A stretch of 35,347 nt of DNA from an uncultured Bacilli bacterium (lineage in GTDB: Bacteria > Bacillota_I > Bacilli_A > RF39 > UBA660), in the NCBI GenBank assembly GCA_944359885.1, contig CALVTC010000007.1, forward strand, positions 1 through 35,347. The letters run 5' to 3'. Below, piece after piece: positions 3,126 to 24,612 of this stretch. Numbering within the stretch: position 1 is the stretch's first letter; every line of letters begins with the position of its first letter. Below the pieces are notes generated by a model. The model was not told the origin of the DNA. It saw only the letters and a program-made list of their open reading frames with translations, and searched no databases. A program made the translations under genes and the position numbers.

Positions 3126-4622
3126 TTACCTTTTTAATATTTTTACTGTGTTGGAAGAAGCTATTTTATTTTGCTCTGTTAAAGACTGATAAAATTCTTT
3201 CTTTTCTTCTCCTAGAAACGTTGGATATTCATAATCTTTATCTTCTATTTTATTTTGTGTAATTTGACTTTTAATTTCCTCTTTGGAAATGTTATATTTT
3301 ATCTCTAGATATTCTATAAATATTTCTTGACAATTTTCTTTTTCAGTTAGTAAAACAACAGACGTATTACTTGTTTCTTCTTCTATTAAATAAGTATTAT
3401 CTATTTGAATTTTTTCTATTAAGGTATCAAAAAGATTAAAAAATGCAATATTATCTTCTAATGTCATTTCTTTTTGATATTCGTTTAATAAAATTAGATT
3501 GTTATAGTATAGTTTTGCTAGTTGTAAAAAAGTAGATGTAGATATATCTTGTTGAGTTGATTTGGTATAGACTAAATCTGGATACTTTTCTTGATTTGTA
3601 GAATTTAGTAGTAAATCTAGACCATTTAATGCAGTAATGTTATCCATAAAGAATTGTATTTTATTTTGACCATAAACAGAAAATGCTTGTAAAAAAGAAG
3701 CAGAATCTTGATATACTAAATATTTTAATAAGTCATTTATTTGATAGTCTTCTCTTAGTGCTAGTGTTGCTTGAATTAAATCTAGGGCCTCATCATAGGT
3801 TAGATAACTTGTCTGTCTATATTCGTTTATTTCTGCTGCATATAGTGTTGCATATATTTCTTTTATAAAGGATGGAATGTAATTATCTAGGTTATTGCTG
3901 TTATTATCCAGACAATTTCTTGTTAATAAGTGGAACTCTTCATGGTAAATTGCATCCGTTTTTAAGATGTCTGGAAGATTTTTATAACTTTCTAGGTAGA
4001 TGATAGAAGAATTGGTAGTTACAGCAATTACTACTGAATTTTCTTCTTTTGAATACAAAATAGCATAATACTCTAATTTACACGCTAACTCTTTCGTATC
4101 ATAGTCTGGATATTTTTGTATTAATTCATTATAGGATGATTGTAGCAGTTCTACTTGTTTGGACATTTCTTCTTCACTTAAAGATTCAAATGTAGTACTT
4201 TTACAGGAGATAGTGTTGCTGTTTTCTGTAATTTTATTTAATACATCTTCCCATTTAATACTATTAGTTTTTTCATCGTATAAACTATTATATGTATGTG
4301 TATTAGTGTTATCTGTTAGAGTTCCTAAGCTTTTCAGTACTAGATTTTCATCTACAGCTATTTTGTCTATATTAGAATTATGAATGGATATATTACTTAT
4401 CTTTTCGATTGCTTGTTTTCCTTCCTCTGAAATATTATCTTCATCTAAAGCTAAGTTTGCTAATCTTTCTATTCCTTCTTCTTGTTGTTCTTGTGTTGAT
4501 GCTAGTAATTGAATTTCTTTTTTATGTTCTTCATATAATTCTTTTATTAAAAATCCTATGATTACTAATTCTACTGCTATTAAAGAATTTAGGATTTGTT
4601 GTTTTTTACTATTTTTCTTCAT
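3126..4622 (-). CDS. Membrane-anchored protein with HEXXH metallopeptidase-like motif
   Basis: A 498-residue protein of no family I recognise. The start at 4622 was chosen over an ATG 57 bases upstream because AAAGGAA lies 11 bases before it and the product then opens with a basic patch (MKKNSKKQQ) and one hydrophobic segment (about 10-26), a signal anchor with the rest outside the cell. Mid-protein it has HEEFH (residues 227-231), and a conserved-looking glutamate in FIKEIYATLYAAE follows 24 residues later at 255. This HEXXH + E spacing is that of gluzincin zinc peptidases. The C-terminal half is helical with no other motif. The peptidase call is inference from the motif alone. It shares a divergent promoter patch with the GDPD gene. 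Confidence 0.6.
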   Translation of the reverse strand: MKKNSKKQQILNSLIAVELVIIGFLIKELYEEHKKEIQLLASTQEQQEEGIERLANLALDEDNISEEGKQAIEKISNISIHNSNIDKIAVDENLVLKSLGTLTDNTNTHTYNSLYDEKTNSIKWEDVLNKITENSNTISCKSTTFESLSEEEMSKQVELLQSSYNELIQKYPDYDTKELACKLEYYAILYSKEENSVVIAVTTNSSIIYLESYKNLPDILKTDAIYHEEFHLLTRNCLDNNSNNLDNYIPSFIKEIYATLYAAEINEYRQTSYLTYDEALDLIQATLALREDYQINDLLKYLVYQDSASFLQAFSVYGQNKIQFFMDNITALNGLDLLLNSTNQEKYPDLVYTKSTQQDISTSTFLQLAKLYYNNLILLNEYQKEMTLEDNIAFFNLFDTLIEKIQIDNTYLIEEETSNTSVVLLTEKENCQEIFIEYLEIKYNISKEEIKSQITQNKIEDKDYEYPTFLGEEKKEFYQSLTEQNKIASSNTVKILKR

Positions 4623-4650
4623 CCTGTGTTTTATTCCTTTCGTATTTATA

Positions 4651-4679
4651 ATCATATAGTATTTTATAAATTTATTCAA
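4651..4679 (-). promoter_or_regulatory. Promoter of the HEXXH protein gene
   Basis: TTGAAT (4679-4674), a 17-base spacer and TATGAT (4656-4651) on the minus strand. Its -35 box overlaps the -35 box of the opposing GDPD promoter by five bases. Confidence 0.6.
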
Positions 4680-5430: not shown

Positions 5431-5751
5431 TTATTTTTGATAGTTCTTTTGATTCGTGTTAGACAGATTATCAAGTTGCAAATTATCAATTGCATCATCA
5501 ATATAATATGTTATATACTCTTTATATTTTGTTAGTACTTCTTTTGTAATTCCATTTATTCTTGTCTCTTCTATTCCTAAAAAATTAGATATTTCTTTTG
5601 TTTCATATACTGTGTCATTTATATATCCTAATTTTAAATAAGCAATTGTTTTTACTTCTGGTGATAATGTTTCTATTACTTTATCTAATAGTGGAAAATT
5701 TATAAAACTAGATAAATTTTGTTCTTTTGGTTGATTTTGCATTTGGTTCAT
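5431..5751 (-). CDS. Stand-alone sigma region-4-like domain protein
   Basis: A 106-residue protein that on its own would be hypothetical. Its residues 28-95 match the extra C-terminal domain of the larger sigma factor at 6800-8110: TLSPEVKTIAYLKLGYIND here against TSSPKEATIALLKLGYVND there, then a helix-turn-helix-like KEISNFLGIEETRINGITKE against EDIADFLKIEKQEVVEATKE. It lies 56 bases downstream of the shorter sigma factor on the same strand. The intervening A-rich DNA has tandem stops and a different frame, so this looks like the detached C-terminus of that copy, now with its own AAAGGT ribosome-binding site. A role as a separate DNA- or polymerase-binding accessory is inference. Confidence 0.7.
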   Translation of the reverse strand: MNQMQNQPKEQNLSSFINFPLLDKVIETLSPEVKTIAYLKLGYINDTVYETKEISNFLGIEETRINGITKEVLTKYKEYITYYIDDAIDNLQLDNLSNTNQKNYQK

Positions 5752-5807
5752 AATTCTTTTACCTTTCCCATTTCTTTTTATTAAACATTTTTGTTTTTTT
5801 TCTTCAT

Positions 5808-6695
5808 TTAATGCTGTTTGACAAGTTTCTTTCCATTCTCGTTTAGGTCTTTGTCAACTGTATCTGAATCTGAGAAAAATGGTAGTAGTCTTTCTACTTC
5901 TTCTGAAAATCGAATTTTCTTTAATCCTTTTTCTTCAATCTGGCGTACTCTTTCTCTTGTTAGACCATATAAATTACCTATTTCTTCTAGAGTCATTGGA
6001 TCTTGATCTAAAAGGCCGTAGTGATACTTTATAATTAAATTATTTCTTCCTTGAGGAATAACAAAATCTATTACTTTTATTAATTCTTCTCTTAGTGCTT
6101 TTTTTATTAATAATGTATTTGGATTGTTGCTTTCATCTGATACAAAATTTAACATATTCTTATTTGTTTCTTCGTTTATAGGTGCATCTAGGCTTAATAA
6201 TTCCATCTGCATCTTTTCTAGTTCTCCTATAGTTTTTTTAGAATAATCTAATTTCTCTGATATTTCTTGTTGGGTTGGGTATCTATTTAACTCTTGTTGA
6301 AGTTGTTCTATTTCTTTTTTATATTTAAATAAATCTGTATAATAATGAACGGGTATTCTAATGGTTCTTCCATCATCTTGTATTGTTCTTATAATCCTTT
6401 GGTTAATCCACAATGTGGCATAGGTTGATAATTTAGTATCCTGACTTAGATCAAATTTGTCAATTGCGGTCATTAGGCCAATATTACCCGCTTGAATATA
6501 ATCATCTAAACTTAGATTATAGTTGCTACTCCTATATTTACTTGCAATTGATATAACTAAACCTTGATTTCTTAAAATCAATTCTTCTCTTGCTTCTTTT
6601 GAACCCTTTTGGGACTGTTTTATAAGTTCTCTTTCTTTTTCTAGTGTTAATAACTCTTTGTTTTTATTTTCCTGTATTGTTTTACTATTATTCAT
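5808..6695 (-). CDS. Sigma-70 family RNA polymerase sigma factor, RpoD-like (short copy)
   Basis: A 295-residue sigma factor with regions 2, 3 and 4 and no region 1.1, so group 2-like. Region 2 includes KFDLSQDTKLSTYATLWINQ, and region 2.4 is RTIQDDGRTIRIPVHYY, close to primary sigma factors and so expected to read a TATAAT-like -10. Region 4.2 is MTLEEIGNLYGLTRERVRQI. It is a tandem paralogue of the gene at 6800-8110, very similar over the first ~285 residues, but stops before the lysine-rich linker and extra domain of that copy. The extra domain continues as the separate 5431-5751 gene. The promoter-proximal block is duplicated too. The ribosome-binding site is poor (GAAGAG), as in the other copy. 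Confidence 0.88.
   Translation of the reverse strand: MNNSKTIQENKNKELLTLEKERELIKQSQKGSKEAREELILRNQGLVISIASKYRSSNYNLSLDDYIQAGNIGLMTAIDKFDLSQDTKLSTYATLWINQRIIRTIQDDGRTIRIPVHYYTDLFKYKKEIEQLQQELNRYPTQQEISEKLDYSKKTIGELEKMQMELLSLDAPINEETNKNMLNFVSDESNNPNTLLIKKALREELIKVIDFVIPQGRNNLIIKYHYGLLDQDPMTLEEIGNLYGLTRERVRQIEEKGLKKIRFSEEVERLLPFFSDSDTVDKDLNENGKKLVKQH
6381..6563 (-). repeat. Near-identical tract shared with 7796-7978 (sigma paralogues)
   Basis: About 183 bases covering sigma regions 2.1-2.4 differ from the tract 1415 bases away at only a handful of positions, including synonymous sites, while flanking parts of the two genes diverge more. This suggests recent duplication or gene conversion. Confidence 0.8.
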
Positions 6696-6702
6696 TTTGA
6701 CT

Positions 6703-6751
6703 CTTCTTTCTTTTTTTTATTATATCTTATTTTTTCGCTAGAAAAAAGATA
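6703..6751 (-). promoter_or_regulatory. Duplicated upstream block with TATAAT, short sigma copy
   Basis: On the minus strand this 49-base block holds a TATAAT at 6724-6719 ahead of the start codon and a T6-CTAGCG-A6 motif where the -35 region would lie. The same block precedes the second sigma gene (8119-8168) with two one-base length changes. No good TTGACA-like -35 is visible at 17 bases. Confidence 0.55.
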
Positions 6752-6799
6752 AAATTTTTGATTTATTAAAATCTGTAATTGTATTTTATATCATAATTT

Positions 6800-8110
6800 T
6801 TACATTCTTATTTTTTTATCGGGTAGGTGGTCTATTATATTATCTACATCACATATTATGTTTTCTTTATACTTTTCTAATATTTCTTTCGTTGCTTCAA
6901 CTACTTCTTGTTTTTCTATTTTTAAAAAATCGGCAATATCTTCAGTAGAAAAATAGGTATCATTTACATATCCTAGTTTTAAGAGAGCAATGGTTGCTTC
7001 TTTTGGCGAAGAAGTAAGTATGGTTTCTTCTAATTGTGGTGTCTTTAGTATTTCTATACTTTCGTTTTTAGCTTTTCTTGGTGTCTCTTTTAAAACAGTA
7101 GGAGTTGCTTCTAGTTTTTGTTGCGAAATTATTTTATCCTGTTCTTCCTTTGTTTTTTGCTTTTGCTTGTCTTTTTTCTTCTTTTTTACTTCATTTGATA
7201 TCTTTCGATTATTTTTATTAGTTTTTTTTGTTTGATATTCTTTTCTTCTTTGCTCTTCTAGGTTTTTGGCAATTGTATCCGCATTTGAAAAAAATGATAG
7301 TAATCTTTCGGTTTCTTTTGAAAGTCGAATTTTATTTAATCCTTTTTCTTCAATCTGACGTATTCTTTCTCTTGTTAGACCATATAAACTACCTATTTCT
7401 TCTAGAGTCATTGGATCTTTATCTAAAAGGCCATAGCGATACTTTATAATTGAATTATCTCTTTCTTGAGGAATAACAAGATCTATTACTTTTATTAATT
7501 CTTCCCTTAATGACTTTTGCATTACCAATGTATTTGGATTTTGTCTATCATCTGAAATAAAATTTAATAAACTGTCTTTATCTTCTTCCCCTATCGTTGA
7601 GTCTAAGCTTAATAATTCCATCTGCATATTTTCAAATCGTTCTATGTTTTTTTTGGAATAACCTAGTTTTTTGAATATTTCTTCCGGGGTTGGATATCTA
7701 TTTAACTCTTGTTGAAGTTGTTGTATTTCTTTTTTGTATTTAAATATACTTTCATGTAGATTGGCTGGTATTCTAATGGTTCTTCCATAATCTTGTATTG
7801 TTCTTATAATCCTTTGGTTAATCCACCATATGGCATAGGTTGATAATTTAGTATCCTGACTTAGATCAAATTTGTCAATTGCGGTCATTAGGCCAATATT
7901 ACCCACTTGAATATAATCATCGAAACTTAGATTATAGTTGCTACTCCTATATTTACTTGCAATTAACATAACTAAACCTTGATTTTTTAAAATCAATTCT
8001 TCTCTTGCTTCTTTTGAGCCCTTTTGGGCCTGTTCTATAAGTCTTCTTTCTTCTTCTCGGGTTAATATATTTTTGTTTTTATTTTCTTCAATTATTTTAT
8101 TATTATTCAT
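6800..8110 (-). CDS. Sigma-70 factor with lysine-rich linker and second region-4-like C-terminal domain
   Basis: A 436-residue protein. Residues 34-117 are sigma regions 2.1-2.4 (KFDLSQDTKLSTYAIWWINQ; RTIRIPANLHES), about 118-170 region 3 and 200-265 region 4 with the helix-turn-helix MTLEEIGSLYGLTRERIRQI. A strongly basic linker (about 286-330, with a KKKKKDKQKQK run) leads to an extra domain at 360-425. In it, IALLKLGYVNDTYFSTEDIADFL aligns with the region 4.2 stretch beginning IIKYRYGLLD, but the recognition-helix residues RERIRQ are replaced by KQEVVE. Ordinary sigma factors end after region 4, so this is an unusual architecture. No region 1.1. The downstream paralogue has the extra domain as a separate gene. 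Sigma identity is firm; the role of the extra domain is unknown. Confidence 0.88.
   Translation of the reverse strand: MNNNKIIEENKNKNILTREEERRLIEQAQKGSKEAREELILKNQGLVMLIASKYRSSNYNLSFDDYIQVGNIGLMTAIDKFDLSQDTKLSTYAIWWINQRIIRTIQDYGRTIRIPANLHESIFKYKKEIQQLQQELNRYPTPEEIFKKLGYSKKNIERFENMQMELLSLDSTIGEEDKDSLLNFISDDRQNPNTLVMQKSLREELIKVIDLVIPQERDNSIIKYRYGLLDKDPMTLEEIGSLYGLTRERIRQIEEKGLNKIRLSKETERLLSFFSNADTIAKNLEEQRRKEYQTKKTNKNNRKISNEVKKKKKDKQKQKTKEEQDKIISQQKLEATPTVLKETPRKAKNESIEILKTPQLEETILTSSPKEATIALLKLGYVNDTYFSTEDIADFLKIEKQEVVEATKEILEKYKENIICDVDNIIDHLPDKKIRM
7796..7978 (-). repeat. Near-identical tract shared with 6381-6563
   Basis: Partner of the tract in the short sigma copy, offset by 1415 bases, covering the region 2 coding sequence. 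Both copies are in direct orientation. Confidence 0.8.
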
Positions 8111-13080: not shown

Positions 13081-13920
13081 ATGAATCAAGATAATTTAGA
13101 ACAAATCATGAGAGATTGTTGTAAAGACAAAAAAGATGATTGCTTATGTAGAGTTTTAGATTGTGTATGTAAAAAAGGTGTCACTGGGCCTACGGGGCCA
13201 ACAGGACCTACAGGACCTACTGGATCTAGAGGTGTAACTGGTCCTACGGGAGCTACTGGACCTCAAGGTATTACTGGGCCTACTGGTGCAACTGGATCAC
13301 AAGGAATTCAAGGACCTACAGGGCCAACAGGGCCTCAAGGTGTAACTGGACCTACTGGTGCGAGTGGTTTACAAGGGCCTACAGGACCAACTGGAGCTAC
13401 TGGACCTCAAGGTATAACCGGTCCTACTGGAGCAACTGGTGCTACAGGAGCAACAGGACCTGCTGGAGACCCTGCTACTAATTTAGATAGTTATGCTATG
13501 GTGCATGATGAGACAAATTCTACTATTTCTCATAATCAACCAGTTTTATTCCAAACTACTAATATCTCTAACAAAATTACTTATAATCCTGCAACTGGTG
13601 ACTTTACAATTCCTGAAGAAGGAATCTATATAATTCACTGGTGGATCAATGTAAGACATAGTGATAGTGATCATTCTACTTGTGAACCTAGAACTTTGGG
13701 AATCGAATTCCATCAGTTCTGGCCATCTGATGTTTTAATTGCCCATTCTTCTACACATAATAAACTTACTTGCTGTGATACTGGTACAATTAGTGGTAAT
13801 GCAATCTTTGCGGCACTTCCTGGTGCTAGTTACCGTTTAATTAACACTTCTGGAATTGATATTAGTCTAGTTCCAAACGATTTATATTCAGCTGCTGTTT
13901 CTATTACTAGAATAGTGTAA
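13081..13920 (+). CDS. Collagen-like surface protein, BclA type
   Basis: A 279-residue protein in three parts. Residues 1-32 are hydrophilic with six cysteines (13, 14, 21, 23, 28, 30). Residues 33-131 are 33 uninterrupted Gly-X-Y triplets, mostly GPT, GAT and GPQ. Residues 132-279 form a C-terminal domain of the TNF/C1q-like kind seen in exosporium glycoproteins, including [12 protein letters not shown] and a final AAVSITRIV. In Bacillus and Clostridioides such proteins form the hair-like layer of the spore surface; sporulation genes in this window fit that. The GPT threonines are likely O-glycosylation sites. No classical signal peptide, as in BclA. AAAGGAGG precedes the start. Single-gene transcript with its own terminator. 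Confidence 0.85.
13177..13473 (+). repeat. Collagen-coding imperfect tandem repeats
   Basis: Ninety-nine codons of Gly-X-Y give degenerate 9- to 18-base direct repeats of the GGACCTACTGGA kind. The tract is markedly more GC-rich than its surroundings because of the Gly/Pro/Thr codons. It is prone to length change by slippage or recombination. Confidence 0.8.
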
Positions 13921-22270: not shown

Positions 22271-22606
22271 CTATTTTAAAATTATAGAATTACTAATGGT
22301 TTTCGATATTTCATTAAATAGACCGTTCATTGCTTTATTAAATCCTTGCTCTATTAGTGAAGATAACTTCATTCCAAATTTTGACAAAATATTATTATAA
22401 TCTGCTTCTTCTTCCAAATAATTTTGGGCATTAATCTCCTTTCCTTCTTTTACATCTTGTTCAAATCTTTTTATTGCATCTTCTGTTAATGTTGTTTTTC
22501 TACTTTCTGTATATTCATAATACCCAGTCATTTGACTAACATATAAACCTAAAAATAGAACAACTAAAACTATCATTAGAAGACCAGCTATACTTTTATA
22601 ATTCAT
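22271..22606 (-). CDS. Small single-span membrane protein in the yqxA position
   Basis: A 111-residue protein with one hydrophobic segment (about 5-25) followed by a hydrophilic helical domain, probably outside the membrane. It overlaps the end of spoIIP by 11 bases. In Bacillus the gene at this place (gpr-spoIIP-yqxA) encodes a small membrane protein of the DUF3679 kind; I cannot confirm sequence similarity, so the name is not given. ATG 22606 was taken as start because GGAGGTGA stands nine bases before it; an upstream TTG is too close to that site. A role in sporulation is suggested only by context. Confidence 0.7.
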   Translation of the reverse strand: MNYKSIAGLLMIVLVVLFLGLYVSQMTGYYEYTESRKTTLTEDAIKRFEQDVKEGKEINAQNYLEEEADYNNILSKFGMKLSSLIEQGFNKAMNGLFNEISKTISNSIILK

Positions 22607-23537
22607 ATTCAGCAATCACCTCCAAAAAGCATTCTGAAAAAGCAAGAGATGTATTTAGCACTTCATCGATAGAGTTTTCTGGTCCTCCCATTTCTACTAA
22701 TATAGTAAATGGAGAGAAATCTTGATTGTAAACGCCATTTACTCCTTCCCCTTCTTTTTTATAAATTCCTTTTGAAAGGCCAGGATATTTTTCTTCTATC
22801 TTTTGATTGATTTTTTCAGTAAATGCTAAATTTTCACTATAATTAGGATTTTCTAGACCAATTAAAAATAATATTTTGGCATAACTTTTATTTTCAATTG
22901 TAATTGTAGTTCTATCTTTTGAAAGGCTGTCTCTATGAACGTCAATAAAATATTTTAGGGTTGGATAATTCTTCTTTGCTTCTTCTAAAAAGACTCTACT
23001 TGCCTGATAACTTCCTGCATAGTTCCAACCATGTTGGTTTAGTACTTCTTTGATGCTTTTTTCTTCAACAATTGTTGAATAATTCTTTTCTTCGAATTTT
23101 TCTTCTAATATATAATTATTCATTTGAACTGTTGGCATTACACTATATTCTACAAAACTACTAGGTGTATATTCTTCTGATTGATGACTATTATAAATAT
23201 AGATTAAAGGAGATTTTTCTTGTTGCTGGTTTTGGTTTGGTTCTTTTATTGTTGAAGATGTTTTTTCATCTTGTACTAACCCGTGGTAATTTGCTTTTAT
23301 TAATGTTTTAATTGCTTCTTTTTTAGTAGGAAATAATATATTGATTAATTTTTTTAGTATTGTGTTTTCTTCGTTTTGAGAAAGTAGAATCTCTACAAAT
23401 TCTTTTTGATCAATATTTAAATTTTTACTATCTAGATATTGATACGTTAAATATATACTCCATACAAAAAGGAGTAAAAGAAATATTCTTTTTACTCTAT
23501 TTTTCTTCTTTGGCTTTGAAAAAAAACGTTTTTTCAT
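22596..23537 (-). CDS. spoIIP: Stage II sporulation protein P (SpoIIP)
   Basis: A 313-residue peptidoglycan hydrolase of the DMP engulfment machine; with SpoIID and SpoIIM it thins septal wall so that the mother cell can engulf the forespore. A basic N-terminus and one membrane segment (about 17-33) anchor it, with the catalytic domain outside. The amidase motifs are IYNSHQSEEY (His118, Glu121/122), the FIDVHRDS motif with His201 and Asp203, then GVYNQDFSP and ILVEMGGPEN with Glu282. It lies 37 bases after gpr on the same strand, the classical gpr-spoIIP order. GGTGATAG stands before the ATG. Full length by comparison with known members. Confidence 0.95.
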   Translation of the reverse strand: MKKRFFSKPKKKNRVKRIFLLLLFVWSIYLTYQYLDSKNLNIDQKEFVEILLSQNEENTILKKLINILFPTKKEAIKTLIKANYHGLVQDEKTSSTIKEPNQNQQQEKSPLIYIYNSHQSEEYTPSSFVEYSVMPTVQMNNYILEEKFEEKNYSTIVEEKSIKEVLNQHGWNYAGSYQASRVFLEEAKKNYPTLKYFIDVHRDSLSKDRTTITIENKSYAKILFLIGLENPNYSENLAFTEKINQKIEEKYPGLSKGIYKKEGEGVNGVYNQDFSPFTILVEMGGPENSIDEVLNTSLAFSECFLEVIAEYEL

Positions 23538-23574
23538 ACTATCACCAAAGTTATTTTATCTTATTACAACGGGG

Positions 23575-24612
23575 TTAATTTGTCGGATTAAAGTTAGTAT
23601 GTAGACTTTTATTAATAATATTTCCTAAAAGTATAGAAAGTTTATCTATTAAATAATCAATTTCTTTTGGTGTTACCATCATATTATAATTAACAGGTAA
23701 TAATACTTCTAATAGTAAAGACTTTAGTTCTTCCTCATTTAAAAGGCCTACCATACCTAGGATATCTTCTTTTTGATCTTTTGTTAGAATGTCTTTTTGA
23801 TCTTTATAGTCTTGATTTTGTATGGGAACCAATTTTAATTTTTCATTATCTTGATTGCTAAGTTGATAGCTGATTTTTTTTAATAATAATTCTAGGGTAT
23901 TTTGGACAATTGTTGCGCCATCCACTACTGTTGGAACACCAATTGCAATTACGGGGATGTTTAATGTGTCTTTACTAATTTCTAATCGATTATTACCAAT
24001 ACCACTTCCTGGTGAAATTCCTGCTGTTGTAATTTGAATTGTTTTATTTAATCTATTGATAGAAGAAGATGCTAATGCATCAATTACAATCAGTAAATCG
24101 GGTTTTATTTTATCTTTGATTGCTTCAATTAAATCTTTGGTTTCAATTCCTGTTACTCCGGTTACGCTTGGTTTGAAACTGGCGACATTTTGATAACCCT
24201 CTTCTACTTCTCCAAGAAAAAATAAATGTCTTGTTACTAATACATGATCTAGTGTTTTAGGGCCTAGCGCGTCTGGTGTTGATGATGCATTTCCTAATCC
24301 GATAACTAAGATTTTCATACCACTTTGAAAATTTATTTCCTGCAATACTCTTTTTAATGCTTCAATTCCAATTTTTTCTACTTCTTTAAAATTATTCTTA
24401 TCTGTTATATCTTCGAAAGTAATTGTTTCATATATTCCTTCTTTCTTTTTCCAAGAGGAAGCTACATCTTTATTAATTTTTACTTCTTCTAACGTTATAT
24501 TTTTTTCTTTTCTTATGATCTTTGATACTACTTTATCTTGTTTTTGCCTATTTATTTCATCTACTACTAAATCTGTTCTAAAACCTTTATTTTTTAAATC
24601 AATTGTATGCAT
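23575..24612 (-). CDS. gpr: Germination protease GPR
   Basis: A 345-residue spore protease that cleaves small acid-soluble DNA-binding proteins (SASPs) at germination. It starts with a short propeptide before the FRTDLV segment where the zymogen is processed. Conserved blocks include VIGLGNASSTPDALGP, TRHLFFLG, VTGVTGIETKDLI, LIVIDALASSS, TAGISPGSGIGNNR and AIGVPTVVDGATIV. Its presence predicts SASP genes elsewhere and a true endospore. It is divergent from rpsT, as in Bacillus. AGGTGAG precedes the ATG. I could not find a convincing SigG promoter by eye. Confidence 0.96.
   Translation of the reverse strand: MHTIDLKNKGFRTDLVVDEINRQKQDKVVSKIIRKEKNITLEEVKINKDVASSWKKKEGIYETITFEDITDKNNFKEVEKIGIEALKRVLQEINFQSGMKILVIGLGNASSTPDALGPKTLDHVLVTRHLFFLGEVEEGYQNVASFKPSVTGVTGIETKDLIEAIKDKIKPDLLIVIDALASSSINRLNKTIQITTAGISPGSGIGNNRLEISKDTLNIPVIAIGVPTVVDGATIVQNTLELLLKKISYQLSNQDNEKLKLVPIQNQDYKDQKDILTKDQKEDILGMVGLLNEEELKSLLLEVLLPVNYNMMVTPKEIDYLIDKLSILLGNIINKSLHTNFNPTN

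Follow-up and report, generated by a model that had tools for sequence, protein, structure and literature searches.

A sigma-70 factor from an uncultured Bacilli lineage with an additional C-terminal domain derived from region 4

Sigma factors are usually described with a fixed set of regions. Known SigE and SigK end after region 4, ECF sigma factors lack region 3 and, to our knowledge, none of the tails known from ECF sigma factors is a duplicate of region 4. The closest described systems resemble SigL, the sigma factor studied here, only in part. Like the group 1/2 sigma-70 factors (RpoD/SigA-like), SigL has regions 2, 3 and 4 in order and matches RpoD_Cterm (E 1.9e-65), but it differs from them by region-4-derived modules after region 4, and no equivalog cut-off was reached among the matches listed. 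ECF sigma factors with C-terminal extensions, such as OrbS (PMC9023288), share with SigL a regulatory tail after region 4; SigL has Sigma70_r3, however, and the ECF (group 4) criterion, the absence of region 3, is not met. AsiA of phage T4, known from sigma appropriation (PMC2988021), acts by altering how region 4 meets the beta-flap, and we propose a step of this kind for T, the C-terminal domain of SigL. AsiA is nevertheless a separate phage protein acting on a host sigma. We found no description of a sigma factor with duplicated region-4 modules in the open-access PMC literature, and neither T nor M, a module found ahead of T in relatives, belongs to a Pfam, NCBIfam or PHROG family. On the strength of this limited literature search and the lack of a family, extra modules of region-4 descent placed after region 4 are, within the limits of such a search, an architecture new among sigma-70 factors.

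The window, the whole stretch of 35,347 nucleotides that was analysed, carries two sigma factor genes in tandem on the minus strand. SigL (6800..8110, 436 aa), delimited by its ORF and by Pfam and NCBIfam matches, comprises region 2 (aa 39-110, 7781..7996; PF04542, E 1.2e-14), region 3 (aa 120-193, 7532..7753; PF04539, E 9.8e-14) and a canonical region 4 (aa 216-262, 7325..7465; PF04545, E 1.2e-12), the last with model helices at 216-225, 236-243 and 247-263. A lysine-rich linker (aa 265-350, 7061..7318, net charge +12), assigned from the sequence and the AlphaFold2 model, in which a single long helix is predicted at 277-327, then leads to the T domain (aa 352-430, 6821..7057). The match of SigL to NCBIfam RpoD_Cterm is below the equivalog cut-off. 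SigS (5808..6695, 295 aa) has regions 2-3-4 with similar Pfam E-values, lacks T, and has a core 75% identical to that of SigL over 285 aa. Downstream of it, also on the minus strand, orf106 (5431..5751, 106 aa) encodes T only (aa 16-92, 5706-5476); it was recognised by its reading frame, profile and alignment, and is 50% identical to SigL residues 358-429 over 72 aa (E 8e-20). Together, the ORFs, the Pfam matches and this identity uphold the arrangement proposed in the preliminary description, that of tandem sigma factors with a tail domain fused in the long copy and standing alone in the gene downstream. As judged from regions 2, 3 and 4 in order, SigL and SigS are members of the sigma-70 family, with polymerase binding and promoter function being inferred. 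Pfam gave no significant match in the SigL tail or in orf106, and PF04545 in particular did not match the T domain of either. No SigL or SigS orthologue above the level of RpoD was found in a genome of the same genus. As to a self-regulated promoter, the element upstream of SigS was not strongly repeated at other sites of the genome, and a promoter scan gave matches at chance level only.

The long-copy tail had been said to be related to region 4, and profile comparisons agree. With hhalign, the T profile aligned to the region-4 profile at 97.6% (E 2.9e-12) over 50 columns without gaps; with larger sets the score was 52.4, as compared with a maximum of 18.8 among 100 column-shuffled nulls, and orf106 itself matched region 4 of the NCBIfam SigE model (PRK08301, E 1.9e-4). 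Among the non-T matches listed for the T profile in a search of 2352 ORF segments, down to an E-value of about 1e-4 and judged by eye, all were sigma region 4 or T-like ends, except for a short Clostridia fragment (L096). In the AlphaFold2 model of SigL (pLDDT 81.8, pTM 0.35), region 4 and T share the helix spacing of 20 and 11 residues. We also modelled a protein of a relative consisting of M and T (L044; pLDDT 78, pTM 0.42). When its T was compared with solved structures by Foldseek, 1ku3 superposed with an rmsd of 1.3 over 52 columns, although every E-value was above 0.001; by VIA, it matched 4g6d_A, domain 4 of S. aureus sigmaA, with a Z of 8.4 and an rmsd of 1.9 over 62 residues, followed by other region-4 chains and with some response-regulator helix-turn-helix domains at a Z of about 7. 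The low pTM makes the domain packing in both models unreliable. The profiles and nulls show that T descends from region 4, and in the predicted models it keeps the region-4 helices. An unrelated fold, which would have refuted the relationship, is thus not what the predictions give. T has the ancestry and the predicted fold of sigma region 4 (PF04545) and differs from it by an acidic recognition helix and by extra conserved N- and C-terminal segments.

The positions that in region 4 read T-R-E-R-V-R-Q-I-E are occupied in T by a conserved acidic E-x-x-E-V-I-E-T-T, so that, as the preliminary description had noticed, the recognition-helix residues are missing; acidic ones stand in their place. 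E51 is found in 57 of 60 cases and an acidic residue at position 54 in 54 of 60. The mean charge of the recognition segment is -3.2 in T, with no T above -1, as compared with +1.0 in region 4, and the net charge of T is -3.1. The basic, -35-reading recognition helix by which a sigma region 4 would be recognised is therefore absent, and we infer from the alignments that T no longer reads the -35 element. T is also the more conserved module: in the RpoD-like set its mean identity is 0.64, as against 0.55 for region 4 and 0.54 for M, and in the SigE/K-like set 0.65 as against 0.47 for region 4, showing that, at the level of aligned residues, it is kept more strictly than region 4 and M of the same proteins. 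No other part of the tail is as well conserved as T, although T has lost the DNA-reading residues; it therefore probably binds another protein.

A scan of 84,980 species genomes, with a 7-row alignment subset as the query, returned 59 T-bearing loci. The order region 2, region 4, M, T was found in 45 of them; the others encode M-T, T alone, six M followed by T, or region 2 and T without region 4 (L080). Except in two fragmentary loci, no more than 20 residues separate T from the C-terminus. M is a second module that, by its profile, derives from region 4 (88%; score 30.8, with 17.4 the highest among the nulls), but support from external models is weak: M of C82, a protein of the window's genome, matched Sigma70_r4 at an E-value of 1.3e-4, below the cut-off. 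In the L044 model, M has no helix at the place of the first helix of the helix-turn-helix, and M was not folded alone. Of two sigma-4-like modules, as the preliminary description had it, the extra module stands and the count does not, since relatives typically have region 4, one or more M, and then T. Two findings go beyond that reading: M follows region 4 and precedes the tail in most relatives, and the tail is common among related genomes.

The M-T tail is found on two classes of core. In 32 of the 45 loci the core is RpoD-like, and in 13 it has the short spacing between regions 2 and 4 typical of SigE/SigK. On the tree of the tail, class labels change at least seven times and a single group is rejected (p-AU 0.003), indicating that the tail moved between the two sigma classes. 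The linker between M and T varies from 39 to 207 residues. Module number also varies: counted by eye, some relatives have about 5 to 20 M modules ahead of T, one sigma (L140) has about seven M and two T, and a protein of 1864 aa (L133:269-5860) has about 20 M-like modules and then a T-like end. No curated family covers this last protein and its ORF has no canonical region 4; a second M-rich frame, of 1585 aa, lies in its vicinity. The tail is also found on proteins that lack a complete sigma core, among them C82 of the window's genome (L007:2568-1447), a 373-aa protein made up of M, an acidic linker and T. The same genome encodes a sigma factor with M and without T (C35, L004:1500-121), and the two could act together. 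T of related genomes is thus found in sigma factors or in proteins built from region-4-like modules, and the occurrence in unrelated contexts that would have told against the relationship was not seen. Six further proteins of about 670-1300 aa (L137, L138, L141, L142, L146 and L148) have arrays of HTH-like repeats, a T-like C-terminus and an N-terminus with a weak resemblance to sigma region 2 (hhalign 38%; score 25.9, highest null score 16.4).

At E <= 1e-9, T was detected in 47 of the 241 genomes of the order sample, all in the window's family, and outside this family the class and phylum samples gave weak matches only; one such match (G415) was region 4 of RpoD. M, too, was confined to the family in the class sample (E <= 1e-6). 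Strong forms of both were thus seen only in the window's family, which probably lies within the order RF39. The T loci come from assemblies labelled uncultured 'Bacilli', 'Tenericutes' or 'Erysipelotrichaceae', some from rumen to judge by their titles and many named 'Lapin', from which we infer rabbit; one record belongs to Candidatus Faecisoma merdavium, placed in RF39 by its authors (PMC8035907). An origin from a phage or plasmid was rejected, as no relative was found in IMG/VR (pattern search), INPHARED or PLSDB and there was no PHROG match. No conserved gene neighbourhood of T was found, the commonest neighbour family occurring at 6 of 59 loci.

The residues by which region 4 contacts the beta-flap lie in and near H1, H2 and H5, and it is the helix-turn-helix of region 4 that contacts DNA (PMC2988021). 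T keeps the flap-contact part without the DNA residues, which leads us to favour, with a probability of roughly 0.4 and in the absence of binding data, the inference that T is a docking module, most likely for core RNA polymerase at or close to the beta-flap. On this reading, SigL belongs to a lineage-restricted sigma-70 family extended at the C-terminus by copies of region 4. In place of the -35 element, T would hold a conserved protein with which all T proteins interact, most likely core polymerase at or close to the flap, and may either tether sigma to the polymerase or compete with region 4 for flap binding, tuning dependence on the -35 element. T ends in an F-[IL]-D motif, which was placed on the last helix of RpoD only by a forced global alignment and is weak evidence. 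Against docking on polymerase, a T bound to the flap would be in competition with its own protein's region 4, at an apparent cost, and a contact with core polymerase does not call for the patchy occurrence of T. More doubtful is the wider idea that region 4 gave rise to a set of modular factors, with 1 to about 20 modules with or without a sigma core and a polymerase-docking T at the end, whose sigma activity would be set by polymerase contacts and module number and not only by reading of the -10 and -35 elements. If true, region 4 was copied, and the copy was stripped of DNA reading and kept more strictly than the original, a new control of promoter choice and a natural test of the roles of region 4 besides -35 binding. 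It would also bear on reduced-genome, spore-gene-bearing gut bacteria known mainly through metagenome assemblies.

Other roles for T have to be weighed against docking on polymerase. Through contacts between T domains, T-bearing sigma factors could bring in M-T proteins, C82 among them, and module arrays. The presence of T both in sigmas and in proteins that have no complete sigma core among related genomes, and of SigL, orf106 and the 373-aa M-linker-T protein in the window's genome, is in keeping with such oligomerisation, and a shared self-contact would fit the high conservation of T; we nonetheless regard it as unlikely, as there is no prediction of or data for a T-T contact and one interface would have to serve many listed proteins. 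Less likely again is an autoinhibitory tail, in which the acidic helix would cover the basic helix of region 4 and block -35 binding until a signal is received. The recognition helices are oppositely charged (-3.2 and +1.0 on average) and M-T linkers of 39-207 residues speak for it, but T is kept without a canonical region 4 in M-T proteins, in the L133 array and in L080, and with a pTM of 0.35 the SigL model offers no packing support. That T and M bind DNA with altered specificity, so that arrays would read long upstream sequences, appears still more improbable: the helix-turn-helix ancestry from region 4, module numbers of 0 to about 20, and the arrays of helicase-associated (HA) repeats on other sigmas of the lineage would suit it, but the recognition helix of T is acidic, its net charge is negative, and the first HTH helix is missing from the M model. 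HA repeats are thought to bind nucleic acid. They were seen in 19 of 98 genomes of the window's family, and two RpoD-like sigmas (L134:3318-7565 and L139:1385-4153) are fused to arrays of them (PF03457), with 12 stretches by Pfam in L134 and about 8 by eye in L139.

A functional split sigma factor, in which orf106 would provide SigS with T in trans, is the least probable of the readings considered. No stop interrupts the orf106 frame between 5853 and 5434, and the SigS stop is at 5810-5808, so that the two frames overlap over 43 nt (5811..5853, minus strand). The junction DNA aligns throughout to that of SigL with a one-base gap, bearing out the tandem stops and frame change of the preliminary description. 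A programmed -1 frameshift was rejected, there being no X_XXY_YYZ heptamer in the overlap and no base run longer than 3. For a working pair speak the start codon of orf106, preceded at 10 nt by a ribosome-site-like AAAGG, and a dN/dS between the two copies of 0.39 in T (0.65 in the core), but the value for T also covers the time that preceded the split. The corresponding dS is 1.07 in T and far lower, 0.21, in the core, suggesting that gene conversion has homogenised the cores. Moreover, of the 20 nearly invariant residues of T, 7 are lost in orf106, with changes such as E51R and K19E at conserved positions, as compared with 4 in SigL and 3 in C82, and broken copies recur in relatives, with an in-frame stop in L059 and frame breaks in L044, L082 and L093; in L077, the N-terminus is joined straight to T. 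The pair also does not qualify as a split sigma factor of the SigO/RsoA type, as SigS has regions 2 and 4 and only T is separate. The loss of conserved residues from the free T and the similar breaks in relatives point to decay or frameshift and not to an established two-gene system. Of the gene fission proposed earlier, the frame change holds; fission into two established genes is the less likely reading. Most likely, SigS/orf106 is a duplicated copy damaged by a one-base frame change, an assembly error not being excluded, and orf106 could act in trans at most and is probably decaying.

Downstream of the sigma genes, also on the minus strand, the window encodes a 517-aa protein (3126-4679) with a hydrophobic N-terminus, an HExxH motif (HEEFH) and no Pfam family. 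Genes for SpoIIP, a germination protease and a collagen-like protein of the BclA/C1q type are found at 22596-24612 and 13081-13920; their presence in this 1.37-Mb assembly indicates that the lineage keeps sporulation genes.
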